From Dehalococcoidia bacterium (lineage in GTDB: Bacteria; Chloroflexota; Dehalococcoidia; DSTF01; JACRBR01), in NCBI GenBank assembly GCA_021731085.1, contig JAKFYB010000013.1:1-64000 (forward strand): 64,000 nucleotides of DNA, read 5' to 3'. A model generated the notes under the pieces. That model did not search any database. It was not told where the DNA came from and worked only from the letters and a program-made list of their open reading frames with translations. Position 1 is the first letter of the stretch, and every line of letters starts with the position of its first letter. Made by a program: the position numbers and the translations under genes. Shown piece by piece: positions 12,757-27,603 of the stretch.

Positions 12757-12868
12757 GCGATTGCGGATCGGGCGAGACTGAAGCACAAAACATCGTTCGG
12801 ACCGCCGCATGTCGCTTATGGAACGTGTTTGTGGTGCGGGTGTGCGCTCCAACTCTAGAGGCTACGAA

Positions 12869-13906
12869 ATGCCTTCACCGAAAATCCTGACCTACGCTCA
12901 GGTTCGCGCCGAGACCGATGGGGAGACGCGTCACCTGCTCTTGGGGAATGGTTTTAGTATCTCCTGCCGACCCAAGATATTCACGTACGGGCAACTCTTC
13001 GAGCAGGCAGACTTTTCGAAGCTGGATCGTGCCAGGCGAGCCTTCGAAGTTTTGGAAACAAGAAATTTCGAGCAAGTAATTCGAGCATTGCGCAGCTACG
13101 AACAACTCATAGACGTCTACACACCAAACGACGGAGAAGTTAGAGAGGCTGCGGCAGCTGACGCGGCCGCCCTACGAGAAGTACTGGTCACGGCCGTCGC
13201 GAGATCTCATCCAAACCGACCGCATGACATTTCGGCCGCAGAGTACCTTTCGTGCCGCAAGTTCCTCAGAGGCTACACGAGCATCAATACGGTGAACTAC
13301 GATCTCTTACCGTATTGGTCCCTTATGCAAGATGACTTGGGAGATGAGAAGCTTCCTTGCGATGATGGTTTCAGGAAGCCAGCTGAGGATTCGGAGGCAG
13401 ACTATGTTACTTGGGATCCTGACAACTCGAAGACGCAAACGCTCCGCTATCTCCACGGTGCGCTCCATCTGTTCGATACCGGCGTGGAGATGCAGAAATA
13501 CACATGGGTCAACACACAAGTTCCACTCATCGAACAGATTCGCTACGCCTTGGAGAATGAACAGTATCCAGTGTTCGTGTCAGAGGGTACAAGCGACGAG
13601 AAGATCGATGCGATTCGCCACAACGATTACTTAAGCAAGATGTACCGGGGCTTCACGGAAATAAAGGGTTCGTTGGTGGTATTTGGTCACTCATTGGACC
13701 AGTCCGATGACCATATCTTCGCATCACGGATAGGGTTGCGTGGAAAGACGGGCAGACTCTATGTGAGCATTCATGGAGATCCATCCTTGAAGTCCAACGC
13801 ATCGATAATCCAGAAGGCATCTAGCCTCCCGCTCCTAAGAAAAGTCAACCGGCCGCTCGAAGTTAAGTTCTTCGATGCTGAGTCGGCGTCAGTTTGGACA
13901 GGCTGA
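12869..13906 (+). CDS. DUF4917-type SIR2-like protein
   Basis: 345 residues from the ATG at 12869 (MPSPKILTYAQV), chosen over an in-frame start at 12809 because AGAGG precedes it. Motifs are those of SIR2-like/DUF4917 proteins: LLLGNGFSISC (nucleotide loop, near 24), TVNYDLLPYW, TLRYLHGALHLF, and GSLVVFGHSLDQSDDHIF. In defence systems such domains degrade NAD. Whether this one hydrolyses NAD is an inference; the usual GAG loop is GNG here. It lies 170 bases before the TIR-SLOG pair on the same strand, giving a cluster with all domain types of Thoeris (SIR2, SLOG, TIR) in separate genes. Confidence 0.7.
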   Translation: MPSPKILTYAQVRAETDGETRHLLLGNGFSISCRPKIFTYGQLFEQADFSKLDRARRAFEVLETRNFEQVIRALRSYEQLIDVYTPNDGEVREAAAADAAALREVLVTAVARSHPNRPHDISAAEYLSCRKFLRGYTSINTVNYDLLPYWSLMQDDLGDEKLPCDDGFRKPAEDSEADYVTWDPDNSKTQTLRYLHGALHLFDTGVEMQKYTWVNTQVPLIEQIRYALENEQYPVFVSEGTSDEKIDAIRHNDYLSKMYRGFTEIKGSLVVFGHSLDQSDDHIFASRIGLRGKTGRLYVSIHGDPSLKSNASIIQKASSLPLLRKVNRPLEVKFFDAESASVWTG

Positions 13907-13970
13907 ACGCGCCTAAGACTCATGGCGTCCTTTCCCTACGTCGTTTCTCGATTGAAAAGTGTGAGCTGGT

Positions 13971-13993
13971 TCGCACAACAAGAGATTGTGCGA
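13971..13993. repeat. Related palindrome, copy 3
   Basis: TCGCACAA and TTGTGCGA arms surround the 7-base centre CAAGAGA. The arms match those of the repeats at 1324 and 6671 while the centre differs. It lies between the DUF4917 and TIR genes, suggesting either a shared regulator site or a recombination core with a different spacer. The remaining bases 13907-14075 hold no gene. Confidence 0.5.
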
Positions 13994-14075
13994 CGTACGG
14001 CGCTGCCTATACGGTTCCAGTCACGCTCGGTACGCTCGAGCAGGGCGGAATCGCGACTTCATCCGCAGGGTGTCT

Positions 14076-15263
14076 ATGTCGAAGCGATACGTCGTGTACT
14101 TAGTTCATGCTGATCAGGGGAAGTCCGCGCGAGTCCTTCGAGCACGCGTGCGGTCTGCACTCAAGCTCCTCGACATCCCCGGCGACTTACTTTCGATCAG
14201 ATCCAGTCTCCCGCCCGTCGACGATGCGCAGACAGTTCGGGTTTGCATCTACTTAGGAAGCAAACGGGGGAAAGGCAATGCGAGCTGCCATGCGGCCATC
14301 CAGACGGCACTCGAACGCGGAATAGCGACTTTTCCCGTGGTGCCACAGGGAGCCTTGTTCACCGAGGTAACCCCGGAGATTCTAAACGAGTTCAACGCGT
14401 TTCAATGCGATGGGCGAGATCCATTCAGGAGGTTGTCTCAAGTCATTCTTCGCACGCTCCATCTGACCGATATTCAGCGTCGCGTTTTCATCAGCTACGC
14501 ACGCAAAGATGCGACAGCTATGGCAGAACAATTATGGGAGGCTCTGTCGGCCCGGGGCTTCGAAGTGTTCCTAGATCGCGTGTCACTGGATACGGGCGCA
14601 AACTGGCGCGAGCGGCTCTTCGAAGCACTTGAGCGGAAATCATTCGTATTGATGATTGAATCTCCAGAGGCTGTCACAGCGAAGGGTGTCGAGATGGAGT
14701 TCAACTATGCACGTGAGCGGGATATGGGACTCTTGACGTTGACTTGGCATCAAACCGTAGACAGAGGTCTAACACTGCCAGGCATTTACGAGAAGTACAG
14801 AACGCATCTTCCGAAAAGTGCCCTCCGGTCGGACAGAGTTGGCAACGTTCGCTTGAAATCTCACGTTGTACAAAAAGTACTTGACGAGATTGAATCAAGG
14901 CATGCGGAGGCGTTGCTCAGGAGGCGCCGGGCGGTTCTCGGCAGTCTGATGCGAGCTCTGGAGTGGCAGGGGATTTCCTTCAAGGGGATTTCGCAATGGT
15001 CCTTGGTTGCCGATATGGTGGCCCGCGGCTGGAAGTACGACCTTGTTTTCAGCGTGACGCCGCGTGCTCCCGAAGTGCCAGACCTTTATGTGTTGGATTC
15101 AGCTCGGCAGTATGATAAAGGCCGCGAAGCGGACGGGATACTCGTTCACACAATGAGGGCCGTTCCCTCTCAAACAGCAGGGCTACTGGATTGGGTGATC
15201 GCCGGCAGGCGAATCAAGTCGATCGCCGACGATGAAATCGTTCGTTTTGTGAGTGGACTATGA
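14076..15263 (+). CDS. TIR-domain protein with N- and C-terminal extra domains
   Basis: 395 residues from the ATG at 14076 (AGGG upstream; the frame from 13986 would start inside the palindrome). Residues about 1-130 are an alpha/beta domain (VRVCIYLGSKRGKGNASCHAAI) that may itself be a degenerate TIR-like fold. Residues 135-215 are a clear TIR domain: RRVFISYARKD, GFEVFLDRVSLDTGANW, and GVEMEFNYAR with the candidate catalytic Glu (206 or 208). Residues 285-395 form an unassigned C-terminal domain. TIR domains cleave NAD and make cyclic ADP-ribose signals in immunity. The stop overlaps the start of the SLOG gene (ATGA), so the pair is translationally coupled. Confidence 0.85.
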   Translation: MSKRYVVYLVHADQGKSARVLRARVRSALKLLDIPGDLLSIRSSLPPVDDAQTVRVCIYLGSKRGKGNASCHAAIQTALERGIATFPVVPQGALFTEVTPEILNEFNAFQCDGRDPFRRLSQVILRTLHLTDIQRRVFISYARKDATAMAEQLWEALSARGFEVFLDRVSLDTGANWRERLFEALERKSFVLMIESPEAVTAKGVEMEFNYARERDMGLLTLTWHQTVDRGLTLPGIYEKYRTHLPKSALRSDRVGNVRLKSHVVQKVLDEIESRHAEALLRRRRAVLGSLMRALEWQGISFKGISQWSLVADMVARGWKYDLVFSVTPRAPEVPDLYVLDSARQYDKGREADGILVHTMRAVPSQTAGLLDWVIAGRRIKSIADDEIVRFVSGL

Positions 15264-16000
15264 AGAGCCTTCAACCTGCCTGGTCAGCATCACCAGTGTT
15301 GAATGGCCAGAGCCTGTTCCTATCAGCCAGTTTTCCGCGACCCGAGCGGAATGCGAAATTCTACGAGACAGCAGATCCCGACGAGCTGACGCAAGCAATC
15401 GTGGCGTTTGCAAGGGCTGTTCTTGGAGCAGGCGGAGGAGTTGTGTTTGGCGGTCATCCAACAGTTTCACCATTGATAATGTTGGTGGCTAGCGAGTACG
15501 TCGCCAAGGATTCGGCCCCAGGAGCGGCGAAGCCGCCAGCGCTGATCTATCAGTCCAAGGTCTTTGCGGGGGCGCTCACTCCAGCCACGCGACGCATGGA
15601 ACGCGACCGCCTCGGACAGATCATTTGGACAGCAAGATCTAGAACCGAGCCGCCGAGACGCCGACGGAAGTCAGCCCCTCCTTATCCACGGAGCTTGGCG
15701 ATCATGCGGCGGCAGATGCTCAAGAGAGAAGATCTGATCGGTGCGGTGTTCCTAGGCGGAATGGAAGGCATTGAGGATGAAGCCAAGATGTTCAGAAAAT
15801 TGCATCCGACGCGAGTAGCGGCGTACGTTGGCGCACCTGGTGGCGCTGCCCGTGAACTGGCCGAACGCGAACTCGCGCACGTCCGGGCAAACCCACAGGC
15901 GGAGATCGAGTGGTTCGCGGATCTCGCCCAGTCGCGCGAGTATCCAGCATTGATGCAGCGAATCGTCTTGACTTGTGCGGCGCAGGCGGGCCTGACGTAG
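15260..16000 (+). CDS. SLOG-domain protein (putative nucleotide-signal sensor)
   Basis: A 246-residue Rossmann-like protein with SLOG-family features: the opening strand LFLSASFPRPERNAKFY, a glycine-rich turn AGGGVVFGGHPTVSPLIMLVA, and the late motif GAVFLGGMEGIEDEAKMF. SLOG domains bind nucleotide-derived ligands; in ThsA of Thoeris the SLOG domain senses a TIR product. Here it is a stand-alone protein joined to the TIR gene by a 4-base overlap. A basic loop (PPRRRRKSAPP) in the middle is unusual. The simplest role is ligand sensing for an effector encoded elsewhere in the cluster, perhaps the DUF4917 protein. Confidence 0.75.
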   Translation: MKSLQPAWSASPVLNGQSLFLSASFPRPERNAKFYETADPDELTQAIVAFARAVLGAGGGVVFGGHPTVSPLIMLVASEYVAKDSAPGAAKPPALIYQSKVFAGALTPATRRMERDRLGQIIWTARSRTEPPRRRRKSAPPYPRSLAIMRRQMLKREDLIGAVFLGGMEGIEDEAKMFRKLHPTRVAAYVGAPGGAARELAERELAHVRANPQAEIEWFADLAQSREYPALMQRIVLTCAAQAGLT

Positions 16001-16199
16001 TCCGTGCGGTCGTGCCAAGTCAGTGTGCGCGATAGGAGATCAGGACTCGAACTCGGTACATCCTTGTCGACGCCGTCTCGTCGGACGAGTGGAACTGTTA
16101 TTGCGTTTCCTGTAGATGCATCGCAGCCCAACTACCCGCGGGTTGGCGAAGCATGTTTCGTTTCTCCTACATCCAATTCACGGGTGGACGCGATGTTCG

Positions 16200-16691
16200 C
16201 TAGTACTTTGCTCGGATCGTAATCGCTTCGTCCACCCACGACGCGAGGTTAGCTTTGATGTGGTCGTAGACATAGGTGCTCGTCGTGAACGGCGGATCGT
16301 AAGCCCTCACAATCTCGCTGAGCTTGCGCTCACCGACGGTGAAGCCGGTAAAAGGGTTCGTTCCTTTGGTGCTCTGCTTTTCGGCACTGTTCTTTAGGTT
16401 GTGTATGTAAATGCCGACGACGCCCCTCTTGTCCTTCCAGGCCCTTTCGATTTCGTAGTTAATCCACTTGCGGCCTGCTGTGTTGGAGCCGATCAGGACG
16501 ATCGCGCAAGAACGACCCGTCAGTTGGTCATTGATCCAGTCCTGAATTGCCTTGTCTCCCTTCTTGGTGACTGACTCCCAGTCGTTGTCGGAGCAAGGCT
16601 TATTCCCTTCGACCGTTCCTATATTTCGAACCTGTGAGGCTCTCCAGGCATCTGGTTGGTAGTGAAAACTGTAGAAGGCCTTTTTCGCCAC
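16200..16691 (-). CDS. thsB: ThsB-type TIR protein (DUF1863)
   Basis: A 163-residue protein that strongly resembles ThsB of Thoeris: the opening MAKKAFYSFHYQ, then SCAIVLIGSNTAGRKWINYEI with the likely catalytic Glu80, the downstream KGTNPF, and a C-terminal STYVYDHIKANLASWV helix. In Thoeris, ThsB senses phage and makes a cyclic ADP-ribose isomer that activates ThsA (SIR2-SLOG). Here it is convergent with the TIR-SLOG pair and has no ThsA on its own strand. A ribosome site is not clear. The 199 bases 16001-16199 between the convergent genes hold nothing recognised. Confidence 0.85.
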   Translation of the reverse strand: MAKKAFYSFHYQPDAWRASQVRNIGTVEGNKPCSDNDWESVTKKGDKAIQDWINDQLTGRSCAIVLIGSNTAGRKWINYEIERAWKDKRGVVGIYIHNLKNSAEKQSTKGTNPFTGFTVGERKLSEIVRAYDPPFTTSTYVYDHIKANLASWVDEAITIRAKY

Positions 16692-17008
16692 GGGACGTCC
16701 TTTACTTTGGCCCGCGAAGGGGTGCTCCCGACCGGATTGCTGCTCGAACTTATGTTTGGAATGAGTGTCCTATTCTCGATCGATATCTCGGGGCTGTCAA
16801 GGCAAATTCAATCCAGGTGAACCTGAATCCATACGCTCGATGCAGACATGGACTATCAAGGACAGCCTGCATACGCGATCATTTCCGAATCTTCCGCGCC
16901 TCAAAAGTTCAGGAAGGCAAACGACATTCATCGATGCAGCTTCCGTCGCGCACGCCTTTGATAGGCACGGCGCGGCGCACAGTCGCCACCTACACCCACG
17001 AATTCGTT

Positions 17009-17043
17009 AGCGCAGAGTCTCTGGACGGTAGAAACTCTGCGCT
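17009..17043. repeat. 10-bp perfect inverted repeat (in gap 16692-17214)
   Basis: AGCGCAGAGT (17009-17018) and ACTCTGCGCT (17034-17043) form a perfect stem with a 15-base loop. It lies about 170 bases past the 3' end of the leftward nuclease gene. It has no T-run, so it may be a transcript-end hairpin or a mobile-repeat relic. The rest of the 523-base gap shows no gene; short open frames there have no ribosome site and biased composition. Confidence 0.4.
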
Positions 17044-17214
17044 TCTTCATCCCAACGATGACCTGCCGCCAGGCGCTCCCCCTGCTGTGCCTCGGCCTCG
17101 GCCCGGGCGCGTCCCTATAGCCTCATGCTCAGGCGCGATCCCAATCCACGCAGGACGCTCATCACACTGCAAAAGACCTTCCTGGGATTTGGACGCCAAC
17201 GTCGAAGCACGACG

Positions 17215-17976
17215 TCATGGACGCTTGAGGAGAAAGTCTATCGCCCGCGCGGGATCGGCTGAAAGATCGCGCTTACCCTTGCACCTATCGGCCACGCAAC
17301 GAAGCCACCACCCGTGCATTGATCGATTAAGGACCATCGCCGCGCCGCACGTTGGACACGGCTCAAGCTGGCGGACGCGCTCCATGCGCTCATAGAGGTC
17401 CGCTCCGTCGATCAAATCAATGCCCTGCGCCTTCGCCTCGTCTTGCGCCGCGCCGGTGAAGCGCGACAGCGTCACAAAGCACCCATCACCCCTTCCAACA
17501 TCCCGACCACGCAGCGTGCCGCCGAAGCTTCGAATCTCATCTACACCGACCTGCCGCGCTTGCCACCGCTTGCACTGCACAAGAACGCGTCGACCTTGTC
17601 GCGTCAGAACGAGGTCCACGTTGCCGTCCGGCGCATCCTGGCGACCGGTCTCCTGAACGTTCCATCCCTCCCGTCGGAACACTTCGCCGACCAGCCACTC
17701 GAACTCGCCGCCATCAAGGGTCCGTAGGTTTGACGTCCATTCGACGAGCAAGCGCCGATGGCTATCGCGCACAACGCCGGCGAGCCAGAGCAGGCCTAAG
17801 AATCCGGCCAGGCTCACCGCGATCGCGTTGAAGGCGATGAACAGCGGAAGACTGACATCAAGCAACGTCGGGAGGATCAGGCCGAAGCCGCCGTAGATGG
17901 ACCCGAGTACGATGGCGATCGTCCACTCAGACAATGCGGCGACCGCCGGCTGGAGACGCTCCTCGATGAACTTCAC
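17215..17976 (-). CDS. Membrane-anchored Mrr-family restriction endonuclease with zinc ribbon
   Basis: A 253-residue protein with two N-terminal membrane spans (about 18-40 and 43-66). An Mrr_cat nuclease domain follows (about 88-195): GEFEWLVGEVFRREGW, then GNVDLVLTRQ and VLVQCKRW, giving the D...QxK form of the PD-(D/E)xK site. The C-terminal zinc ribbon CPTCGAAMVLNRS...CVADRC resembles topoisomerase zinc fingers. Mrr proteins cut modified or foreign DNA, and membrane anchoring would place this one near entry sites. Its ATG overlaps the stop of the upstream gene (ATGA), so the two form an operon. Confidence 0.85.
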   Translation of the reverse strand: MKFIEERLQPAVAALSEWTIAIVLGSIYGGFGLILPTLLDVSLPLFIAFNAIAVSLAGFLGLLWLAGVVRDSHRRLLVEWTSNLRTLDGGEFEWLVGEVFRREGWNVQETGRQDAPDGNVDLVLTRQGRRVLVQCKRWQARQVGVDEIRSFGGTLRGRDVGRGDGCFVTLSRFTGAAQDEAKAQGIDLIDGADLYERMERVRQLEPCPTCGAAMVLNRSMHGWWLRCVADRCKGKRDLSADPARAIDFLLKRP

Positions 17977-18875
17977 GCCGAGTCGAGCGCTTTCTGGACA
18001 GCGCCGTTAAGGACGGCTACAGCGAGCTCTCCCTTCTCGATTTGAAACAACGGCGAGTTCTGGCGATTCGAAAGGTGGATGCGCACGCCGTCACTGTAGC
18101 CGTCGAAGTCGAGCATCTTCGAGTAGGGCATCTCCATCGCCTTCTTCTCACCGGTGAAGACGAGGCGCTGTGACGTGATGCTCAACGTACCCGCATCCTC
18201 AACGCGGAACTGAGATCCCACCACGACGCTCCGACCGCGCGTACCACCAGTATGGAAACGGACGCCCTTCATGACACGGAAACTCACACCTTGATGGCCG
18301 GCCTGATACTCGCGCACCGCGACCTCCTTCAACAACGACGCGGGGAACTCAGCATGCACTACCTCATTTCGCTTGGTCAGGACGCTTGGCGCTTCCGTGA
18401 CCGGAAGGCGTCCGTCGTTGATGCGGGCAATTATCAATCGATGCCACACTTCGGAAAACTCATCAATCAATACGGTCATCGGCAGGTCGAGCAGCTCCGT
18501 GACGTCATTCCACGTCGCTTCCTCTTCAACGCTCAGGATGTCGTCGGCCAAGAGGCGCGATGCCCACGTGCCGAATGCTTCACGCTGCAGCTGGCGGCGG
18601 TCGTCGGCACTGAGGGTCTGGGCTACCTGTCCGATCTCGGAACGTCGCGCGGTGTCGATGGTCACCACATCCGCACTCGTGTACTCGCCGAGCATGGCTG
18701 CGTACTGGGTGCGAGCCGCCGATCGCTGAGCAGCGAGTTCCTGCTCGCGCTGGGCCAGTTCATGTTTGCAGTCGTCGCAGCTCGATCGGCCCGTGATGAG
18801 GCCAACGGGTCCGAGCGACCTTGCGCACGTCGAGCACTTCATCGCCATCGGGTGGACATCTTTCACACTGCTCAC
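17973..18875 (-). CDS. Zinc-finger protein with C-terminal GRAM/PH-like domain
   Basis: Up to 300 residues. The N-terminus has CSTC...CDDC spacing (about 14-37), a likely zinc ribbon, then a charged helix (coiled coil, about 38-60). A middle helical region follows, and a C-terminal beta domain, GTLSITSQRLVFTGEKKAMEMPYSKM, is typical of short PH/GRAM-like membrane or ligand-binding domains. The start is uncertain: a GTG at 18875 or ATGs at 18848/18842 nearer the Cys motif. It overlaps the Mrr gene by 4 bases and probably works with it as regulator or sensor. Function not known. Confidence 0.65.
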   Translation of the reverse strand: MSSVKDVHPMAMKCSTCARSLGPVGLITGRSSCDDCKHELAQREQELAAQRSAARTQYAAMLGEYTSADVVTIDTARRSEIGQVAQTLSADDRRQLQREAFGTWASRLLADDILSVEEEATWNDVTELLDLPMTVLIDEFSEVWHRLIIARINDGRLPVTEAPSVLTKRNEVVHAEFPASLLKEVAVREYQAGHQGVSFRVMKGVRFHTGGTRGRSVVVGSQFRVEDAGTLSITSQRLVFTGEKKAMEMPYSKMLDFDGYSDGVRIHLSNRQNSPLFQIEKGELAVAVLNGAVQKALDSA

Positions 18876-18994
18876 GGAGGATTGTCCACGGCCAGTTCAT
18901 GGCACTTTGTTCGCGCCGAACACCGCGCCATTTGTCTCAACACATTTGGCCTCGCAGGAGTGGCGATCATACGTGCGCGAGGCATTCTGATCAA

Positions 18995-19336
18995 TCAAAC
19001 GAGCCGACGAGGCGACCCGGACCTATCCCAAGACATCGCTTCCACAAAGCCGAAGCTCAATGGTTCGCAAGCTGCGCGACCCGAGTTCCGCCACAACACA
19101 CGGAAGGTCAGCGAAGCCGAGCGGGTTCCGCGCTTTGGCTCCGCGGGCAGAGGGGCGGCTTGAGCGGTACTTAAATCGAAGGTGAGACTGTCGACAATGC
19201 CTGCAGCTTCCTTCGGCATTGGCCCCGCGTCGATGGCGCTGCACCAATTCTCGAACGTGAAAGCCGAGAGGTCGAGCGGCTTGGCCTTGGGCTCTTGCTG
19301 GCCATCTCGGCTCCATTCTAGTTGCCGTTGGGGCAC
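18995..19336 (-). CDS. Doubtful ORF between two defence genes
   Basis: A 113-residue open frame starting MPQRQLEWSRD and overlapping the end of the preceding coiled-coil gene by 19 bases. The first half (LDLSAFTFENWCSAIDAG) looks protein-like; the second half is rich in Arg/Ser and looks like chance translation. It could be a decayed gene or a real short partner. Without it, bases 18876-19317 hold no gene. Confidence 0.2.
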   Translation of the reverse strand: MPQRQLEWSRDGQQEPKAKPLDLSAFTFENWCSAIDAGPMPKEAAGIVDSLTFDLSTAQAAPLPAEPKRGTRSASLTFRVLWRNSGRAACEPLSFGFVEAMSWDRSGSPRRLV

Positions 19337-20238
19337 TGCACAGTTAGTTCTCCCCCTTTCAATAAATTTCCTTCTTGTATCAATGTCCCATCCACCGGAT
19401 TTTGCAATCGGTAGGACAAGATCATCCCTTTAGTTTCCAGAGTGATCGTGTTGTGCGTGAGGATGTATTGCTTGATCTCATCCTGACGCCCGAACACGTA
19501 CTGCCTGAGAAGCACAAACACTCCGACCGGCCCCGCGCCCTCGAAGGGGAACGATTGATTGGAGAGGGGCTGTTCTTCTGGTTGCGGCAAGTCTGCGAAT
19601 TGCACGTCGTTGAAGCCGAACTTCCCTTTGAATTCCTGGCCGACCACGAGTTTCATGACACCGCGATAGGGAAATTCGATGACGATGTCCATGTATGGCT
19701 GATCGTCTGTGAGGTGATTGGCCCTCGCCACATGGCAGCGAATCATGGGATGCTCAAACAGTGGGTACTTTCTTTCGCGTTCGATTAACCTGTCAGCCCA
19801 TTCCGCCTTTGGCTCCAGTTCACCGATTTTCTGCCAACCTTCGAGCTTGCGCTTGATTTCCTCGAAGTGCTTTTGTTCCAACTCGTCACGTTCGGCTCTG
19901 AGATTTTCGACTTGCTCGCGAAGTTGGATTTTTTCACTCTCGTTATAGGCCTCCCGCGTGGCTTCCATCGCGTTGTCGTAGTCATGAGCCGGTGCATTGG
20001 GCTGGCGGTTTGGTGCGTGAACGATAATCTGCGCCGCTGCATAACCACCGGCCAGAATCACGGAAACACACACAACGATGATTCCGATGTCCCTTGCGAG
20101 ATCGTCCTCGACAAAGAAATTCACCAGCGCAACGAGTAGGATCGCAATCAACGCCTGCACGAGGCCCACCAGGAAGTGCTGACGCCAGTCTTGGCTCTTA
20201 ATCCATTCCACAAAGCACCCCCTGACGACTGCTGTCAC
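19318..20238 (-). CDS. Membrane protein with coiled coil and beta-rich C-terminal domain
   Basis: A 306-residue protein. Two hydrophobic spans (about 22-43 and 49-71) are followed by a long charged helix (about 90-140, ESEKIQLREQVENLRAERDE), an evident coiled coil. A C-terminal domain of about 150 residues is rich in predicted strands and has no Cys pattern. The whole gene is AT-richer than its neighbours, a sign of transfer. No family is recognised. The position between the Mrr operon and the deaminase set suggests an accessory or defence role, perhaps a membrane effector. Confidence 0.65.
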   Translation of the reverse strand: MTAVVRGCFVEWIKSQDWRQHFLVGLVQALIAILLVALVNFFVEDDLARDIGIIVVCVSVILAGGYAAAQIIVHAPNRQPNAPAHDYDNAMEATREAYNESEKIQLREQVENLRAERDELEQKHFEEIKRKLEGWQKIGELEPKAEWADRLIERERKYPLFEHPMIRCHVARANHLTDDQPYMDIVIEFPYRGVMKLVVGQEFKGKFGFNDVQFADLPQPEEQPLSNQSFPFEGAGPVGVFVLLRQYVFGRQDEIKQYILTHNTITLETKGMILSYRLQNPVDGTLIQEGNLLKGGELTVQCPNGN

Positions 20239-20349
20239 AGATCATGACAGAGCCTGCATGGTGTGCAATAGGCACCATTTTCCAAGGGCCCATTGATGTG
20301 TCGCCTGAATCTGAAGCAGTTGAACGACGCCCACACTCAGAACAAATCT

Positions 20350-20380
20350 GGTGCTTATGCCCGCGGGCCATCTAAGCACC
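20350..20380. repeat. Hairpin repeat A (in gap 20239-20464)
   Basis: GGTGCTTA (20350-20357) pairs with TAAGCACC (20373-20380) around a 15-base loop ATGCCCGCGGGCCAT-like in sequence, followed by GGAT. A second copy lies at 23099-23127. The two loops share ATGCCCGC and GCCA, and the stems differ by a T-A to C-G swap that keeps pairing. CTGAATCTGA also precedes both copies. It sits downstream of the leftward deaminase gene. Confidence 0.55.
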
Positions 20381-20464
20381 GGATCATAACGGAGACACCT
20401 CAGCCAATCGAGTCCAGACTCGTGTTCGACAAAACTACGTGGCCGGCCCTTCGCCACCGTTACC

Positions 20465-21028
20465 TCATCGACCTCCGCCGAGACCTTGCTCATTCTTCAA
20501 ACGCAAGTCTAGTTGCCCAACTGAGGAAATAAAGATGTCCTCAGCAATCGTGCGGAGTTTTGGCGAACAATGCGCAAGCTGCCAGTCCTGATCCTGCGCA
20601 AGGTCCACCCAAACGCTGGGTAATGTTTCGCGTCGGCGCACGATCCCAGCGTTATCATCCTCCGCTGCATATCGAACGCTCCCAACGCGGCTCGTGACCA
20701 GACGCGCGAAGCACATCGGGCAACACTCGACCGAAGTGTAAAGAGTTAACTCATTCGCGTTTAGATCGGCTGGAGAAGCCTCAAAAAGGCTTATCGCTTG
20801 CATCTCGGCGTGGGCGTCACTACGAAAAGTCGGAACGAACACCTGATTTCTCGCCTGCGCGATGATGGCTCCATCGCCGGAAACGAGGACAGCTCCTACG
20901 CCGAAGTTTCCTTCCTCGGCGGCTGAGAGTGCTTCTCGGACGGCAACGAGAATGTACGCGTCGTCTGCGAACCTCGCATTAGGCTCATAAGATTCGAGCT
21001 TGCGCGCAATCGACGTTAGTTTGGGCAC
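20465..21028 (-). CDS. Cytidine/deoxycytidylate-type deaminase
   Basis: 187 residues with the zinc deaminase signature: DAHAEMQAISL (HAE, His zinc ligand and catalytic Glu, near 73) and TSVECCPMCFARLV (C-x2-C zinc ligands, near 97). The layout EEGNFGVGAVLVSGDGAIIAQARNQV fits CMP/dCMP, guanine or tRNA adenosine deaminases; the exact substrate cannot be read. It lies on the same strand as the small protein and dGTPase upstream, with a 12-base gap to the former. Defence deaminases convert dCTP to deplete nucleotides during phage growth, which would fit beside a dGTPase. Confidence 0.8.
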   Translation of the reverse strand: MPKLTSIARKLESYEPNARFADDAYILVAVREALSAAEEGNFGVGAVLVSGDGAIIAQARNQVFVPTFRSDAHAEMQAISLFEASPADLNANELTLYTSVECCPMCFARLVTSRVGSVRYAAEDDNAGIVRRRETLPSVWVDLAQDQDWQLAHCSPKLRTIAEDIFISSVGQLDLRLKNEQGLGGGR

Positions 21029-21040
21029 TTGAGAAGTGTC

Positions 21041-21250
21041 CTATTGATGGGCCGTTGCTGCTGAATTGCTGTTGTGTGGTTGCGGCTGAGACTCAACGTC
21101 ATCCAACGCCCTCTGAAGGAGCGTCTCGAGTTTGGCGGCGCTCTGTCGATAATCCTCACTGGATGAGGCGAGTAGACGATTCCCAACTCGGTTTAGGAGT
21201 GCTTCCCTTCGCTTAAACTCGACGCTTCTTTCGTCTTCACTGGCTGACAT
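21041..21250 (-). CDS. Small helical protein between deaminase and dGTPase
   Basis: A 69-residue charged, mostly helical protein (MSASEDERSVEFKRRE...) with no Cys or hydrophobic segment and a polar tail (QPQPHNSNS). It lies 12 bases before the deaminase gene and 53 bases after the dGTPase stop, on the same strand, with GGAGG-like bases (AAGGAGGCCCTC) upstream. Function unknown; it could regulate or bridge the two enzymes. Confidence 0.5.
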   Translation of the reverse strand: MSASEDERSVEFKRREALLNRVGNRLLASSSEDYRQSAAKLETLLQRALDDVESQPQPHNSNSAATAHQ

Positions 21251-21303
21251 TGAGGGCCTCCTTGGGTTAGAATAATAGTTCTGATCGGCCCAGTGGTCAA
21301 TAC

Positions 21304-22650
21304 TTAAAAGTCTCTGAGGGCGCTTCGTTCAGCCGTAAAGAGGCGTCTATACATACGCTGGGCGTATTCATCAGTCATCCCTGCAATGTAGTCGCATGCG
21401 ACACGCCTTCTAGCTTCCTTGGACGTCGCAATTCCCATTTCGAAAAGGTCGCGGAGCTGGCCCTCCGGATAGGACTTCGCCGAATTCTCTTTTCCAAAAT
21501 CGATAAACAGTCTCCTCAGCACTTCTTCCGCGCGCGCTTCGAGTGTATGAACGGTTTGATCTGTGATGAGCAGGACATAACTCAGGGCCTTGAGCGCGTG
21601 GACTCGTCTGGCCACCTCGCCGTCGGTCACCATCTCGAAGCGATATCGATCGGTAGCTAAGCCCTCGCCGCCCTTTCGTTCTCCACGGTCCGTCCCCTGA
21701 ATGAACTGATTGATTAACTCAGATGTCTTTCTCTTCCTCGAAACGGACCGTGAGATCGTACGGCCCTCTGGTGGCGAGAGGACGGTGCGTACTTGTTCAA
21801 TCGACCACGACACGTCGTCATCCGTCATCGCGAGCCCGTCCTTCGCCGCCGCGACCGCAGCTATCTTCTTGATTTCTTGCCGATGATCATCGGCCCTTTC
21901 CCAGGTTATGAGGCCGGCATGCAATCCATCTTCGAGATCATGGACGGCGTACGCGATGTCGTCTGCAAAAGTCATGATTTGACACTCGAACGATTGCCCT
22001 GCTTCGACCTCCTTAAGCCACCCCGCCAATTCATCCTCGGCGTAGTGAAACTTCTTTTCATCGGCTCCCTTAACCCACGCGTTCTTGTACTTGAACTGAG
22101 CGTCGAGAACCGCACGTGTGAGGTTAAGCCCCTTGTACGCACCAGACTTTTCCTCGAGAAAACCCAGCACTCTGAGATTCTGCGCGTTCGCCTCGAAGCC
22201 ACCGCACGGTTTCATAAGTGCAGCAAGGACATTTTCCCCACGATGGCCGAACGGAGGATGCCCTATGTCGTGTGCCAATGCGGCCGCTTCGCAGATGTCG
22301 GGACTTGCCCCCAGCCGAAGCGCAATGCCCTTCGCGATTTGCGCGGTCTCTAGGGAGTGGGTCAATCTCGTGCGAAAGAAGTCACTCTGATCGGTCGCGA
22401 AAACTTGAGTCTTGCCTTGCAACCGGCGGAATCCCGCACTGTGGATAATGCGAGAACGGTCGATCTCGAAAGGATTCCGCTCATCGCGGTCCTTTCCTCC
22501 CTCGGAGACGCGCCGCTCGCAGTCGCGCCCCCGATAGGCTATCGGCTCGTAAGCCGCAGTCCCCGTCGGACACGGGGTCGGTTCGTTGTCGCTCGGAGTG
22601 TGCCCGCCCTCAGCTGAAGTCATTGCCGAACTCCCTGTTCGTGGAAGCAA
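21304..22650 (-). CDS. dgt: dGTPase-like HD-domain triphosphohydrolase
   Basis: A 448-residue protein with the complete dGTPase pattern: RSRIIHSAGFRRLQGKTQVF, TRLTHSLETAQI, ALAHDIGHPPFGHRGE (HD metal site), NLTRAVLDAQFKYK, and FADDIAYAVHDLEDG. These residues bind metal and split dNTPs into nucleosides and triphosphate. The length is normal for bacterial dGTPases. The ATG at 22650 gives about 30 extra N-terminal residues; the internal start at MTSAEGG is an alternative. It leads a three-gene set with the small protein and deaminase. dGTPases are known to block phages by emptying dGTP pools, but housekeeping use is also possible. Confidence 0.9.
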   Translation of the reverse strand: MLPRTGSSAMTSAEGGHTPSDNEPTPCPTGTAAYEPIAYRGRDCERRVSEGGKDRDERNPFEIDRSRIIHSAGFRRLQGKTQVFATDQSDFFRTRLTHSLETAQIAKGIALRLGASPDICEAAALAHDIGHPPFGHRGENVLAALMKPCGGFEANAQNLRVLGFLEEKSGAYKGLNLTRAVLDAQFKYKNAWVKGADEKKFHYAEDELAGWLKEVEAGQSFECQIMTFADDIAYAVHDLEDGLHAGLITWERADDHRQEIKKIAAVAAAKDGLAMTDDDVSWSIEQVRTVLSPPEGRTISRSVSRKRKTSELINQFIQGTDRGERKGGEGLATDRYRFEMVTDGEVARRVHALKALSYVLLITDQTVHTLEARAEEVLRRLFIDFGKENSAKSYPEGQLRDLFEMGIATSKEARRRVACDYIAGMTDEYAQRMYRRLFTAERSALRDF

Positions 22651-23098
22651 ACCCTATCGGAGGCCCGTGATCAAGCGAGACGTGGCACTGGGTCACTACC
22701 AGCTGGCGTGCGCCTCGCGGTTTGCATAGTGCACCGGGGCAGTCAGTCCTTGCCGCCGTTCCGTTGTAGTGAAGTCCTGAGCGCTCTGCAACCCCATTGG
22801 CCAGATGTTCACCGCAGGCGCGAAGATCACGCCAGAACTGGCGCTCATTAGCGCCTGCGCCCGCATCCTTCGACCCAAGTCCGAGCCAAGCCGTGCTCGG
22901 TCCGCGACCTCACGAAGCCCGGAGCCCGGCGACGTCGCTGACCTTCCTTTTCATGGTGGCGAAATCGCGGAATTGAACGCCGTGGGAGCGACAAACGTGC
23001 GCATTTGCTTCGGAGTAAGGTGGTCGGCCCGACGGATCAAAAGTCTCGTGCGGAGATTTGATGTCCATCTGTCACCGCTGAATCTGACAACGTTGCGA

Positions 23099-23127
23099 GT
23101 GCTCATGCCCGCTAGCCAATTGAGCAC
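23099..23127. repeat. Hairpin repeat B (in gap 22651-23366)
   Basis: GTGCTCA (23099-23105) pairs with TGAGCAC (23121-23127) around a loop sharing ATGCCCGC and GCCA with repeat A, and is followed by CGGAT as there. The other 700 bases of this gap show no gene: several short frames exist on both strands, but none has a ribosome site or protein-like composition. Confidence 0.55.
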
Positions 23128-23366
23128 CGGATTGATGTGCAACTTCCGTCCGTGTCCAATCGTCTCACGGGTCATGCTTCTTTGGTCGCAGCGGTTTGTT
23201 TAAAAGAAGGCCGTTCACCTGTTCAATGCAAAGGCGCGCGCGCGAACTCTTTGATTTAGCTGAGCACAACGCCGTCAAACACTCCATAGGGACATCGACA
23301 ACGTTGAAGCCGCCTTCGGTCCGTTCGGTTCGTTGTATCCGAAGAGACCCATCCGGACGGCGTCGT

Positions 23367-24854
23367 TCAGTCGTGCGTCAATCGCGGCTGGACAGACCTC
23401 TGCACCAGCATTCTTGACTTCGCCGCCGCAATCTGGCCCTCGTCTGCCTCAAGGAGGCGCGGTTTTGTGCGTAGCCGCACGCGTTGACCGACGTCGAACT
23501 CGACGTCAACCAGCGTAACGGTGCCGCCACTTCGCCGACGAATCGCTTGCGTATCGACGTGAACCACCCATCCCCGACCGAAGATCGGGTGGACAAGTCT
23601 CTGGCCACGAGTGAACTTGGTAGCATGGCTCAGATCGGTGCTTTCTGGCCCGACGCTGGTCGGGTCAATTTGTGGACCTAGTTCCCAACCTGTTGCTTCT
23701 CTAAGTCCTATGTCTACGAGCGCCTCCGCAACTCTATTGAGGTAGTTGTAGTCCTGCACCTTTACTGTCCAGTCCTCAGGGAGTGAAATCGAACCTCCCA
23801 TCGCACCTGCCAGCGATGCCGCCATCGCGCCAATCGTGTCTGTGTCCGTGCCAATAAGGTTGACGGCATGCTCGACGCACGCCTTGAAGTTGCCGCCGTA
23901 TCGATAAAACAGCGCTAGCGCAGCGGAAGTTGTAGCGATGCCAGAACCCTTGAATTCCTTGTCATAGCAGCCGAGCGCCTTGAGCACATCCTCGATTGGT
24001 AGATCTCGCGACCTTGAAGCGATCTGTAAGGCTTCTACAGACTCTAGCTTCGTCACTAGTAATTCCCTTTGAAAATCGTGAGTGTCCCCGTCATTCCATC
24101 GGCGCAACCACTGATCAAACTCGTCGGTTCGAGGAACTGAGACTTCTCGCACGAATTCAATGAGGCTTGGAAAGAATTCGGAGGTATGAAGCTCCTCTCG
24201 CGCAAGGACGCGTCGTTGGGCCTCGCTGATGAGCAGCGCCCCAACAATTGCACGAGGATGGCCGTGCGTGCTTATGGCGTTTATCCAAACCTGGGTCTGC
24301 AGCGACGTCCTGTCCTCGAAATTTGCAATTGCGAGAGGTAAGACACGCATCGCGGCGCCGTTGGCGCCAGACTGCCTATAGTCAATGGTGCGTGCGCCGC
24401 GCCGATACTGAAAAAAATTCGCGTAAGGCGTCGCACTCTTGCGCGAGGCTGCATTGGCAGCGGCGGTTATTGTGGAGCCCGCACCTCGTGCATATTGCAT
24501 CCAAAGAGGCAGTTCTACCTTGAGAAAATATGCCGCGTTCACACTTCCGTCAGGATCGGTCGATCGTGCGACTGAAAGCGCAAGTTGCGTATCGTCTGAA
24601 TAATCCCCTTCGTTAATCTGATCGATGTACGTGTTAAATCGACCGCCGGTATTCTTGGGCCAAGAAACGTATCGGTCGAGCCAGTCAAGGCCGGTGTACC
24701 GCAATAGCGCGTCATGCGACTTCATGAACTCCGTAATCCAGCCCATGGCGTCAGCGATAGCGCTTCCAATTAGAGCGGCGACCGCGCGATCTCGTATGAG
24801 TTCGCCTTCAGAAGGTTCGGTGAATTCGAATGTTTGCGTTGGCTGCGTTGACAT
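23367..24854 (-). CDS. ADP-ribosylglycohydrolase (DraG/ARH family) with Tudor-like tail
   Basis: A 495-residue protein. Residues about 24-385 form a DraG-type hydrolase: GSAIADAMGWITEF, INEGDYSDDTQLALSVA (metal-binding S-D-D-T), and IGTDTDTIGAMAASLAGAMGG with the second metal-binding D-x-D. It would remove ADP-ribose from proteins or nucleic acid. The C-terminal 85 residues add a small beta domain, RGQRLVHPIFGRGWVVHVD...VDVEFDVGQRVRL, resembling the Tudor-like tail of UvrD/PcrA, which suggests contact with DNA or polymerase. It lies 6 bases after a DarT-like gene, so it is the likely antitoxin. Confidence 0.85.
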   Translation of the reverse strand: MSTQPTQTFEFTEPSEGELIRDRAVAALIGSAIADAMGWITEFMKSHDALLRYTGLDWLDRYVSWPKNTGGRFNTYIDQINEGDYSDDTQLALSVARSTDPDGSVNAAYFLKVELPLWMQYARGAGSTITAAANAASRKSATPYANFFQYRRGARTIDYRQSGANGAAMRVLPLAIANFEDRTSLQTQVWINAISTHGHPRAIVGALLISEAQRRVLAREELHTSEFFPSLIEFVREVSVPRTDEFDQWLRRWNDGDTHDFQRELLVTKLESVEALQIASRSRDLPIEDVLKALGCYDKEFKGSGIATTSAALALFYRYGGNFKACVEHAVNLIGTDTDTIGAMAASLAGAMGGSISLPEDWTVKVQDYNYLNRVAEALVDIGLREATGWELGPQIDPTSVGPESTDLSHATKFTRGQRLVHPIFGRGWVVHVDTQAIRRRSGGTVTLVDVEFDVGQRVRLRTKPRLLEADEGQIAAAKSRMLVQRSVQPRLTHD

Positions 24855-24860
24855 AGTGGC

Positions 24861-25529
24861 CTACCTTACGCCGAAGATTCGCGGAGAGGCATTCAGTTTG
24901 ATTGAGGGCCCTGAATAGGCGATGTTTGCGGTGCGAACTACCGCTTGAACCCGCTGGCCGTGTTCCTTATCCCGTACGTACAACCATGTAACGTCCTCCA
25001 AACCAACAGAGCCATGGATGAGAATTTCCCCAGGAGGAGGTGCTGGGAAGTCCGAATTAGGGTTGTCAAACATGGCGTCGAAGTGAGCAATGCCTTCGCG
25101 TGCGCGAACATCAGCAGCGCCGGTGATAGTGCCGCTGGAGCTCCACTCACCGATAAAGGCGGTTCCACGCCTCCAAAGTTGTCTCGCCTGAATTCCGAAG
25201 ACAACGCAATCAGGCTCGTGTTGCATCATGCCCCACGGTCGCTTTATCCCCATCGCGACGTATGGAGCCAATTCTTCCGCCTTGCGTCCGTCCGGACTCC
25301 ATCTTCCGGGATCGTCCTTGAACGGAATGTTTCTGCCACGCAGGATCGTTCGTGGGTGTATTCCGCCGTTGGCCAAAATCATCGGAACCTGAACGAGCGG
25401 CGTGAAATGGTAGACCTCGACGATCCGGCGTCGCGAGGCGCTTGCTTGGATTGCCGGAGCATCTACAGCAGCCTCAAACAATACGAACGTCCGTTCTAAG
25501 TTTACTCTCCGACCTTGCCCAATACGCAA
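24861..25529 (-). CDS. DarT-like DNA ADP-ribosyltransferase (DUF4433)
   Basis: Up to 222 residues. The core starts VYHFTPLVQVPMILANGGIHPRT, the NAD-binding opening of DarT/DUF4433 proteins (H-F-T and the helix leading to the G-I loop). It continues GRNIPFKDD and PYVAMGIKRPWGMM, and ends with GEILIHGSVGLEDV, where the Glu matches the catalytic Glu of DarT. DarT toxins add ADP-ribose to DNA bases. The recorded start is a TTG at 25529 without a clear ribosome site, so the true start may be further in. It pairs with the DraG-type gene 6 bases downstream rather than the macrodomain DarG. Confidence 0.75.
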   Translation of the reverse strand: MRIGQGRRVNLERTFVLFEAAVDAPAIQASASRRRIVEVYHFTPLVQVPMILANGGIHPRTILRGRNIPFKDDPGRWSPDGRKAEELAPYVAMGIKRPWGMMQHEPDCVVFGIQARQLWRRGTAFIGEWSSSGTITGAADVRAREGIAHFDAMFDNPNSDFPAPPPGEILIHGSVGLEDVTWLYVRDKEHGQRVQAVVRTANIAYSGPSIKLNASPRIFGVR

Positions 25530-25574
25530 GCTGCGCCACGATGTCGCGTATGTTGCTTCGTTCCGCTACCGATG

Positions 25575-25706
25575 CTAACACAGCCGATTGGCGCTTTGGC
25601 GTGTCCGCCAGGACGGAATTCAGCTTCAGTTTGGCAGTGAGATGAGGCAGCAGTGTCCGAGAATCGCGCGTGCTGCCGTCGCCGCTAGCGTTGGCGGTTG
25701 TGTTAG
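25575..25706. repeat. 132-bp element with 12-bp terminal inverted repeats
   Basis: CTAACACAGCCG (25575-25586) faces CGGTTGTGTTAG (25695-25706), a match at 11 of 12 positions. Inside lies a second inverted pair, GGCAGCA (about 25645) with TGCTGCC (about 25670). It is 132 bases long, non-coding, and fills the gap 25530-25840 upstream of the DarT-like gene. The nested arms and CTAAC...GTTAG ends recall integron attC sites or a MITE; the consensus core is not fully met. Confidence 0.45.
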
Positions 25707-25840
25707 TCGAAGAAGTAAATCTGGCCGAAGTCGTCGGCTGATGCTCCTCGTCAATGGGCTAGTTCTAATTGTTTCACCAGTAGCCTTGGTAGGCCACAGG
25801 TAATGCTGTGGCGCTTCGTCTTAGCCTGACGGTAACCCGA

Positions 25841-26935
25841 CTAGGCATTGGGCGCTCGCCGGTCATCAATTGACACGACCTTCGCTTCCGGTGGCGATCG
25901 CAGAACGACGTTAGTAAGAGATTCCAACAGCGTGATGTTCATATCCAGATGATCCGCCACAGTGGATGCCGGGATCCCGCCCGCGGCTAGGGCGTTGAAC
26001 GCAAGGCTTAGGCTCTCAGGGCGCTCCGTCACCAGTTCATTCGGCTCACCACGATGCCAGCCTTGGCGACGGATGTGCATCTGGGCGGTTCGGTACTGCA
26101 ACGGGCCGATTACCTCGCAATCCAAACCGCGGTGTACCAGCGCTGAAACGCTGATCCCCCATCGTGCCTTCAATGCGAAAAGCGTAGGCCACTTTGAACG
26201 GCCGAGTGGAAATTCGGCACGAACTATCTCCCTCGGAATGAGCAGCGCTCCGGCAAACCTATCCGCTTCGCGTTCCTCGCGTTCCGAATCAACCCCTAGC
26301 TCACTGTGCATGCATAGGTGGCCTAGCTCATGGGCAACATCGAAGCGTGTTCGCGACCAACTCCCTTTTGATGTGCTGTGAACAATGAGCGGGCGGGCGG
26401 ACTGGACGGAGAATGCATCCACCTTGTCCGACACGTCTCCAAAGCTGGCGACGACGGCACCCGTTGTCTCAGCGACGCGCATCATGCTCGCGAGAGGGGC
26501 CGCCCGAGCCACACCGAGCTGACGGCGCAACTCATTGGCCACGTCCTCGGCTTCTTCGATTGAAGCGGGGCGCTGTTTCAATTTCAGAGGTGAAGGAAAG
26601 GAGACGTACTGCTCCAGCGCATTCACAACGGCTAAAAGAAGTCGGCTCAACGAGCGCACACGCTCACGTGTAGCAACGAGCGTGGTTCGTCGAGCACGAA
26701 AGCTGCACTTGGTGTCGTCGATGTCCGGAAGTAATCCGCCGCTGAAGAACCTCGGCTCCACTTCCAGAAGCTGCGCAAGAGCGTCAATGAGTTCAGGTGA
26801 GGGAGATCGACCGCCCCGCTCCAGCTGTTGCATGAATTGGCGACTGACTCCAACCGCCTGCCCCAATTGATCTAGGGTTTGGCTGTGCGCTTGTCGCAGG
26901 ATGCGTAGACGTTCGCCGGAAAATCCATCACGCAT
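25841..26935 (-). CDS. XRE regulator fused to ImmA/IrrE (M78) metallopeptidase
   Basis: A 364-residue protein: N-terminal XRE HTH (about 7-62, LRILRQAHSQTLDQLGQAVGVSRQFMQQLERG), then a linker, then an M78 peptidase domain with an intact zinc motif FDVAHELGHLCMH (HELGH, near 205) and the downstream E in REEREADRFAGALLIP. Fusions of this type act as antitoxins or stress-relieved repressors. Its start overlaps the end of the upstream gene by 8 bases, so the two are one operon, with this protein probably controlling the promoter at 27576. Confidence 0.9.
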   Translation of the reverse strand: MRDGFSGERLRILRQAHSQTLDQLGQAVGVSRQFMQQLERGGRSPSPELIDALAQLLEVEPRFFSGGLLPDIDDTKCSFRARRTTLVATRERVRSLSRLLLAVVNALEQYVSFPSPLKLKQRPASIEEAEDVANELRRQLGVARAAPLASMMRVAETTGAVVASFGDVSDKVDAFSVQSARPLIVHSTSKGSWSRTRFDVAHELGHLCMHSELGVDSEREEREADRFAGALLIPREIVRAEFPLGRSKWPTLFALKARWGISVSALVHRGLDCEVIGPLQYRTAQMHIRRQGWHRGEPNELVTERPESLSLAFNALAAGGIPASTVADHLDMNITLLESLTNVVLRSPPEAKVVSIDDRRAPNA

Positions 26936-27530
26936 GCTGCGCTGGTGGGCCTTGCGCGACGGACCTTAGGCTCACGTCGGGTGCCGGTAGATTGGCCGCA
27001 GGCGTGTTCCTTCGGAGGTGCGTTGGAACGATGTCCGTCGGAATCTCCAGGGGCCAAGCGTTGAGAATCTCGGATTCGCCGTTCACTTGGACGAGCACCA
27101 CTTCGTCGACCGCCATGGTTTCATCATTGGTCTCATAGATAATGCGCCAACGCCCCTCGATGGGGAAATCCGGCCCCAAAGCTTCGAAGGCCAGCTGTTG
27201 TGCCTTCAGTTCCTTGGATCGACGGCGCAAGTGACGTGGCTTTGGGTGTTCCGAGTCACCGTTCTCAAAGCGGATCGGAACACCGCCGACCGTGAAGACA
27301 AAGTGAAGACTATGGTCGAGAATGCCGAGCCACTTATGCTGTGTCGCCGCCTTAACGATGGTATTTCTACATCGGTCATACACAACACAACCGAAGCCCC
27401 AAGAAGAGTCGCCCTTTTCCGGGTCGAAGATGGCCAAGGCGTCCTGACGAACTCGGATGAGGATCTCAGCGATGAGAGACATGCGGTCCGATGTGAGGGC
27501 CGGCGCCATGTCCCAATAGTTGACCTTCAT
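26928..27530 (-). CDS. Unknown protein paired with the XRE-M78 regulator (possible toxin)
   Basis: 200 residues from the ATG at 27530 (MKVNYWDMAP), chosen for AAAGGAA eight bases upstream. The sequence is a mixed alpha/beta domain with WGFGCVVYDRCR and a basic patch HLRRRSKELKAQQ, and a proline-rich C-terminus. It contains no motif I recognise. Its position before an XRE-M78 gene with overlapping reading frames is typical of toxin or effector genes held by an XRE-type antitoxin, but toxicity is only inferred. Confidence 0.65.
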   Translation of the reverse strand: MKVNYWDMAPALTSDRMSLIAEILIRVRQDALAIFDPEKGDSSWGFGCVVYDRCRNTIVKAATQHKWLGILDHSLHFVFTVGGVPIRFENGDSEHPKPRHLRRRSKELKAQQLAFEALGPDFPIEGRWRIIYETNDETMAVDEVVLVQVNGESEILNAWPLEIPTDIVPTHLRRNTPAANLPAPDVSLRSVAQGPPAQHA

Positions 27531-27575
27531 GATGGTTCCTTTCGAACGGGCAGTCCAGAATCGCCGTCTTTCAGG

Positions 27576-27603
27576 ATCGTACACAAACGACAGTTTTTGT
27601 CAA
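27576..27603 (-). promoter_or_regulatory. Promoter with operator-like dyad before the XRE-M78 operon
   Basis: On the minus strand TTGACA (27598-27603) is followed after 16 bases by TACGAT (27576-27581). The dyad GACA-GTTTT-TGTC (27589-27601) covers the -35 box, as an autorepressor site would. A further 12-base palindrome AGATCATGATCT lies at 27606-27617, just upstream. The likely regulator is the XRE-M78 protein of the same operon. Confidence 0.5.

Follow-up and report, generated by a model that had tools for sequence, protein, structure and literature searches.

A DarT-like ADP-ribosyltransferase gene recurrently paired with an ARH-fold hydrolase gene: a candidate module for reversible nucleic-acid ADP-ribosylation

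We analysed positions 1 to 64,000 (the whole stretch is referred to as the window) of contig JAKFYB010000013.1 from a Dehalococcoidia bacterium (assembly GCA_021731085.1), in which a gene for a DarT-like ADP-ribosyltransferase (ART) is followed on the minus strand by a gene for an ADP-ribosylglycohydrolase of the ARH/DraG fold (here called the ARH). A first-pass annotation had placed the end of the DarT-like gene 6 bases before the hydrolase gene and had noted the motifs HFT and GEILI in its product; the coordinates of the open reading frames (ORFs) agreed with the former and both motifs were found. The pair proved to be a recurrent module and more than a chance adjacency. We consider it probable that it forms a reversible nucleic-acid ADP-ribosylation module of the toxin–antitoxin or defence kind, with an ARH fold replacing the macrodomain or NADAR as eraser, because of the pairing counts, the gene fusions, the likeness of the toxin to DarT1, the invariant His and Glu, the ARH ligands, the co-variation of the two proteins and the defence-type surroundings, and also because the logic of an ART countered by a hydrolase, as antitoxin or immunity protein, is a known one (DarT–DarG, DarT1–NADAR, Imm-ARG). 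In this mechanism, the DarT-like enzyme would be a toxin that uses nicotinamide adenine dinucleotide (NAD+) to place ADP-ribose onto a base of single-stranded nucleic acid, which would be guanine in most family members, as for DarT1, and which is left unspecified for the subclade of the window toxin. The adjacent ARH would remove the mark through its binuclear metal site, the extra C-terminal domain of the ARH may tether it to either the nucleic acid or the toxin, and the module would act against phage.

Recurrence was examined in a scan of genome contigs with an alignment of eight hydrolases as query, in which 581 stretches matched, 268 were relatives and the best 80 were examined. In 68 of these best 80 loci, the hydrolase was either immediately preceded by a DarT-like ORF, at a distance of less than 200 bases, or fused to a DarT-like part within one ORF, a proportion that describes the relatives of the eight queries, which had been picked for adjoining DarT-like genes, and not ARHs at large. 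Two of the 68 (L132 and L135) contained only a fragment of the DarT-like part, and three of the 80 loci are the same as loci from the genome searches (L056 = G051, L058 = G409 and L110 = G513). Among the 12 remaining loci, four (L066, L070, L093 and L117) had the DarT-like gene in the same run of genes, separated from the hydrolase gene by two or three ZorA-like and ZorB-like genes, two were near a contig end (with 0.3 kb of upstream sequence at L101 and 0.06 kb at L119) and the others are considered below. Single-ORF fusions of both domains were present at L095 and L112, both from one flavobacterial metagenome-assembled genome.

As a control, 61 genomes of the phylum were searched with the Pfam profile ADP_ribosyl_GH (PF03747), which gave 55 match rows, five of them from the family (G000:C3, G097:C1, G226:C1, G241:C5 and G249:C30; family profile E < 1e-100). 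Within flanks of 1.5–2.5 kb, some cut by contig ends, a DarT-like gene was present at 4 of the 5 family rows (not at G241:C5, which is L205) compared to 0 of the 50 other ARH rows. The best-scoring ARH locus of 30 genomes had a DarT-like ORF in none of the 30, a choice of match that leaves the family out by design. Conversely, none of 30 phylum loci with strong DarT hits (L004–L033, flanks of 1.5 kb or less) carried a family ARH, and of 20 regions surrounding weak DarT hits or relatives of DarT, taken from genomes of the class or phylum, 7 contained the hydrolase. The pairing thus exceeds chance, given the 68 scan loci and the difference between family and other ARH matches. That the two genes of the window are unrelated and adjoin by accident would fit how little the window toxin resembles DarT models, but the same counts, the fusions and the co-variation contradict it, and we give this explanation practically no credence.

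Relatives of the window toxin were found in only 3 of 197 near genomes, its own included, so the gene is sporadic. In one near relative (G051), a hydrolase of the kind found in the window follows the toxin gene after 9 bases, as the ORFs were called, and the two toxins share only 30% identity. No relative was found in plasmids or phages by tblastn, nor in viral contigs by a pattern search, in which five stretches fitted a pattern and none was a relative. A tblastn search with the hydrolase of L129 gave matches in three plasmids and in no phage record.

The gene arrangement was compared across 88 loci (the window, 7 genome loci and the 80 scan loci, three redundant). The DarT-like gene adjoined the hydrolase gene in 76, and 53 of these 76 add an upstream gene for a UvrD-like helicase, for which Pfam supported UvrD in all three examples tested (L044, L045 and L053). 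The arrangement in the window is the simple one of two genes; 23 of the 76 modules are without the helicase, four of which (L060, L094, L112 and L132) have less than 500 bases of upstream sequence. RefSeq annotation lists a UvrD-helicase, a DarT-family protein and an ADP-ribosylglycohydrolase in series on a Rhodococcus plasmid, and a "3'-5' exonuclease", a DarT-family protein and an ADP-ribosylglycohydrolase on a Streptomyces plasmid, and the helicase profile matched both loci. On viral contigs, a DarT-like gene was present at 6 of 18 hydrolase loci, five of these with the helicase; 11 had the ARH alone and one (L182) was cut at the contig end. In the 11 contigs with the ARH and no DarT-like gene (L185–L195, from IMG/VR), a helicase-profile match lay downstream in 10 (not in L185), and it is possible that these viral ARHs are phage erasers of such marks.

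Other arrangements were also seen. Four Bacteroidota operons (L066, L070, L093 and L117) encode a long DarT-like protein with an N-terminal extension, then ZorA-like and ZorB-like proteins and last the ARH, an arrangement suggestive of a Zorya-like motor coupled to a DarT effector; two ZorB-like genes seem to be present in L070. PADLOC was applied to two proteins of L066 and three of L093 and gave weak scores for ZorA (2.8e-6 and 0.0068, together with predicted membrane segments) and 2.5e-10 for ZorB in L093, and the other Zor-like assignments were made by resemblance. At L123 (4980-9212), after the helicase and DarT-like genes, the ARH is part of a single ORF of 1,411 residues that gives it a very long extension. 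Four Thermogemmatispora ARH copies without a DarT-like gene (L103, L105, L108 and L109) lie in similar surroundings on the chromosome, with purine-synthesis-looking genes, named by eye.

The first-pass annotation took the upstream protein to be of the DarT type, and this agreed with both its predicted fold and its catalytic residues. It matched the Pfam DarT profile PF14487 at E = 3.2e-6 (27.4 bits, above the cut-off of 22.5) and the PADLOC DarT profile at 3.9e-5; the gene was missed when the genome was searched in six frames with the Pfam profile at E ≤ 0.001. PF14487 matched 49 of 50 family toxins at E ≤ 0.001 (50 of the 76 paired toxins were given to the scan). The AlphaFold2 model of the window toxin had a predicted local distance difference test score (pLDDT) of 88.5 and a predicted template modelling score (pTM) of 0.86. 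Its best solved match was 8baq, DarT1 of E. coli C7 (Z 18.6, 3.0 Å, 182 residues; Foldseek 2.4e-8), compared to Z 13.2–14.9 for DarT2 entries, 7.5 and lower for other ARTs and about 5–6 for ARTs of the cholera and pertussis type. Similarly, the family toxin profile matched 8baq at 1.4e-43 and DarT2 entries at 6.5e-16 to 1.6e-6. Judged from the model and the profiles, the nearest solved relative of the toxin is DarT1 (guanine-specific and NADAR-paired), ahead of DarT2 (thymidine-specific).

Residues were aligned to DarT1 in 70 distinct ARH-paired rows, the window included (three duplicates were dropped, and L097, L132 and L135 were omitted for length; Table 1). Beyond the invariant His and Glu, the DarT1 residue was present at Asn104 in 67 of the 70 rows, Gln150 in 66, Phe18 and Ser63 in 62 each, Arg52 in 56 and Asp54 in 51. 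Since these active-site residues are kept, most family members probably have a DarT1-like (guanine) target. The window toxin keeps His17, Phe18, Thr19, Met71 and Glu152 and, in a NAD loop where the alignment is less certain, has Arg52 as well as Glu for Asp54. At position 104, only the window, L056 and L057 have Trp, and another target base is conceivable for this subclade alone. We compared these rows with 26 DarT2-type control rows, labelled by strong Pfam score and not by macrodomain partner, which had Tyr at position 63 in 26, Ile at position 18 in 22 and Asn at position 104 in 20. The Tyr of the DarT2 H-Y-E motif, which falls at DarT1 position 63, is Tyr in 3 of the 70 family rows, Ser in 62 and Gly in the window. 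Asn104 alone was rejected as a marker of base specificity, as it cannot separate guanine from thymine enzymes when 20 of the 26 DarT2-type rows also carry it.

Table 1. Positions in the window of the two genes and of the residues and motifs discussed.
Feature	Position	Strand	Basis
Predicted toxin, a DarT-like ADP-ribosyltransferase of 222 aa starting at TTG	24861..25529	-	Pfam DarT 3.2e-6 and AlphaFold2 model
His41 of the HFT motif, equivalent to DarT1 His17 (contacts NAD)	25407..25409	-	Invariant in 70/70; role from PMC11543638
Trp129, aligned with DarT1 Asn104 (contacts target base)	25143..25145	-	Alignment to 8baq
Glu168, catalytic Glu of GEILI, equivalent to DarT1 Glu152	25026..25028	-	Invariant in 70/70
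6-base gap, DarT-like stop (24861) to hydrolase ATG (24854)	24855..24860	-	ORF coordinates
Predicted antitoxin/eraser, an ADP-ribosylglycohydrolase with ARH/DraG fold; 495 aa, ATG start at 24854	23367..24854	-	PF03747 1.5e-42 and model
Glu42	24729..24731	-	Invariant in 54/54
S-D-D-T metal-ligand motif, S86 D87 D88 T89	24588..24599	-	54/54; aligned to DraG TDDT
T-H motif, T196 H197	24264..24269	-	54/54; aligned to DraG TH
D-T-D metal-ligand motif, D337 T338 D339	23838..23846	-	54/54; aligned to DraG DAD
C-terminal small beta-barrel-like domain, residues 409-466	23457..23630	-	Weak fold match, elongation factor P (EF-P) domain I

The start of the DarT-like ORF is uncertain, as a further in-frame TTG lies 16 codons in. 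The downstream gene product matched PF03747 at 1.5e-42, and the PADLOC profiles returned no match to it. The first-pass annotation had proposed a DraG-type partner in the place of DarG, and comparison of the predicted model (pLDDT 91.6, pTM 0.91) with solved structures confirmed an all-alpha ARH fold, with MJ1187 (1t5j) as best match (Z 39.1, 1.9 Å over 300 residues), followed by ARH3, the ART toxin/immunity pair 6dre, ARH1 and DraG entries. In an alignment of 54 hydrolase rows, with motifs aligned to DraG, the residues of Table 1 were invariant, and by these motifs, whose metal-ligand part reads S/T-D-D and D-x-D-T in ARH/DraG hydrolases, the predicted binuclear metal site of the ARH is intact; we infer that Glu42 is the counterpart of ARH3 Glu41, of which E41A is named in titles of Protein Data Bank entries.

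Relatives such as these bear on the nature of the target. If the DarT-like enzyme instead modified a protein (for example on arginine) and the ARH reversed this, as in Tre1–Tri1 and the Listeria pair, one would expect what was seen among the solved relatives of the hydrolase, which include DraG, ARH1 and ARH3, with ADP-ribosyl-protein names, and the toxin/immunity pairs 6dre (Z 34.8) and 8za7 (Z 34.5), and a paper of 2012 predicted that ARHs give immunity to ART toxins (PMC3482391). However, the toxin has a DarT fold that is far closer to DarT1 than to ARTs of the cholera and pertussis type, the Imm-ARG proteins of PMC3482391 occur strictly with R-S-E ARTs whereas the toxin here carries the DarT-type His and Glu, and the UvrD-like helicase is the most frequent third gene (53 of the 88 loci). 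We therefore regard a protein target as unlikely.

The C-terminal domain of the ARH resembled EF-P domain I weakly (Z 6.9, 2.0 Å over 55 residues), and a profile built from the family itself matched 74 of 81 family loci, missing 7, and, in the control set, three of the five family members and 0 of 50 other ARHs; L040 and L053 were among those it missed. As the profile misses some members, the family is not uniform in its C-terminal part. This domain, absent by profile from the 50 non-family ARHs, and the report that DarG2 also physically sequesters DarT (PMC12255303) would suit an ARH-fold protein that neutralises the toxin through binding, its hydrolase activity being incidental; but metal ligands invariant in all 54 rows would not be expected to persist for binding alone, and such a mechanism appears very unlikely. 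The barrel-like match, together with the existence of RNA-modifying ART toxins such as RhsP2 (PMC11833690) and CmdTAC (PMC11618068), might also point to the same module with an RNA rather than a DNA target. The Z of that match is, however, below the level at which it would mean more than a common arrangement, and the nearest relatives, DarT1 and DarT2, modify single-stranded DNA (PMC11543638), and an RNA target is in our estimate quite improbable.

The history of the toxins was examined in a tree of 109 rows, in which the root position is not fixed and the bootstrap is not settled. The DarT2 group forms one side of a branch (99/96). A single clade of ARH-paired toxins was unsupported, as the partner label needs 3 changes and NADAR-type DarT1 is nested inside. 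Of 13 rows labelled DarT1, the partner was NADAR by Pfam in 8 and gave no match at L141 (thus 8 of 9 scanned control partners matched NADAR-DarT1), that of 8baq was taken from the literature, and L143–L145 were outside the partner scan. Either partner swaps between ARH and NADAR or an ancestor that was paired with an ARH could account for this. The window lies in a six-row group (100/100) with four Chloroflexota and one actinomycete, and its nearest relatives are L056 and L057 (three-row group, 98/81). Distances between toxins and between ARHs co-varied over 69 pairs (Mantel r 0.885, with 0 of 2000 permutations as high), which could be explained by common descent alone.

Several observations weigh against reversible nucleic-acid ADP-ribosylation by this pair. 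The window toxin scored 15.2 bits against the NCBIfam DarT equivalog NF048013, below its cut-off of 150, and is for this reason a distant DarT member. It also lies on a long branch (2.39) and departs from DarT1 with Gly63, Trp104 and Pro150, plus Glu for Asp54 as aligned; because of this divergence, its own activity is uncertain. One of the two near-genome relatives, G115 (L003), has a NADAR partner. Six of the 80 scanned hydrolases (L103, L105, L108, L109, L115 and L130) had no DarT-like gene despite upstream sequence being present, and the choice of queries limits the reach of the pairing count, as stated above. Among known enzymes, S. coelicolor SCO5809 and human ARHs were inactive on guanosine-ADP-ribose RNA (PMC11833690), and bacterial ARHs were inactive, and ARH3 weak, on ADP-ribosylated uridine (PMC13036486).

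Compared to DarTG1, the module has a toxin of the same fold, with 8baq as nearest solved relative, and the same gene order, with the toxin immediately ahead of the hydrolase, but the partner is an ARH with metal-ligand motifs (PF03747) rather than NADAR, and in the window toxin Asn104 is replaced by Trp and Ser63 by Gly. With DarTG2 it shares the ART fold, the catalytic Glu, the toxin–hydrolase operon and a hydrolase with an added C-terminal domain, as in DarG (PMC11543638), and differs in the partner fold (ARH here, macrodomain DarG there) and in Ser for the DarT2 Tyr in most family rows. The first-pass annotation had described canonical DarT antitoxins as macrodomain proteins, which holds for DarG but is too narrow, as NADARs serve DarT1 too (PMC11543638). 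Effector–immunity pairs of ART and ARH, such as 6dre, which we take to be Tre1–Tri1, and 8za7 (Lmo0067), likewise combine an ART toxin with a protective enzyme of the ARH fold. Their toxins are not known to be of the DarT type. In the module described here, by contrast, the best fold of the toxin is DarT and not an R-S-E ART, and the ARH has an extra C-terminal domain and often lies in helicase or Zor-like operons. The ARG-centred host systems of PMC9503650 are likewise predicted conflict systems built around an ARH/ARG domain, in some cases together with helicases, but were selected for having no coupled ART, whereas an ART is the usual partner here.

In the papers cited, DarT antitoxins are macrodomains or NADARs (PMC11833690), the couplings named are DraG–DraT, DarT–Macro/NADAR and Macro–sirtuin (PMC9503650), and ARH immunity was predicted for R-S-E ART toxins, with the suggestion that the antitoxin of an ART in a toxin–antitoxin system might be such an enzyme (PMC3482391). 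No DarT–ARH pair was found in open-licence papers of PubMed Central. Thus, the combination of ART and ARH is old as a general idea, and its widespread DarT–ARH form appears to be undescribed in the open-access literature searched. Since the DarT erasers in the literature are macrodomains and NADARs, the pairing would add a third hydrolase superfamily. A widespread module of this kind predicts ARH members that act on nucleic acid, for which the family supplies concrete proteins, residues and a control set, and its helicase-linked and motor-linked versions are suggested as further defence systems. In a bolder form, which we regard as doubtful though conceivable, the module would be a third class of DarT system, with the ARH a nucleobase de-ADP-ribosylase and the two a plug-in pair placed behind no sensor, a UvrD-like helicase or a ZorA/ZorB-like motor, and the Trp subclade of the window would mark neither thymine N3 nor guanine N2 but some other base or position.

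In the window, the pair lies within a defence-type cluster (12809-27584) to the left of a tRNA-Gly gene (27869). The cluster also includes genes for DUF4917/PDC-S21, a TIR protein that matches ThsB (2.9e-35), SLOG cluster3 and an Mrr-like nuclease, as well as a cytidine-deaminase-like gene, a dGTPase and RmrA/RmrT. A duplicated tRNA end was rejected as an island boundary, as the 25-base end of tRNA-Gly occurs only once in the window, with no attachment repeat there. The G+C content was 0.54–0.61 to the left of 28 kb vs 0.60–0.65 to the right, and a gene for a large YD/RHS-repeat-like protein, named by eye, lies to the left of the defence genes (8101-12669, minus strand).

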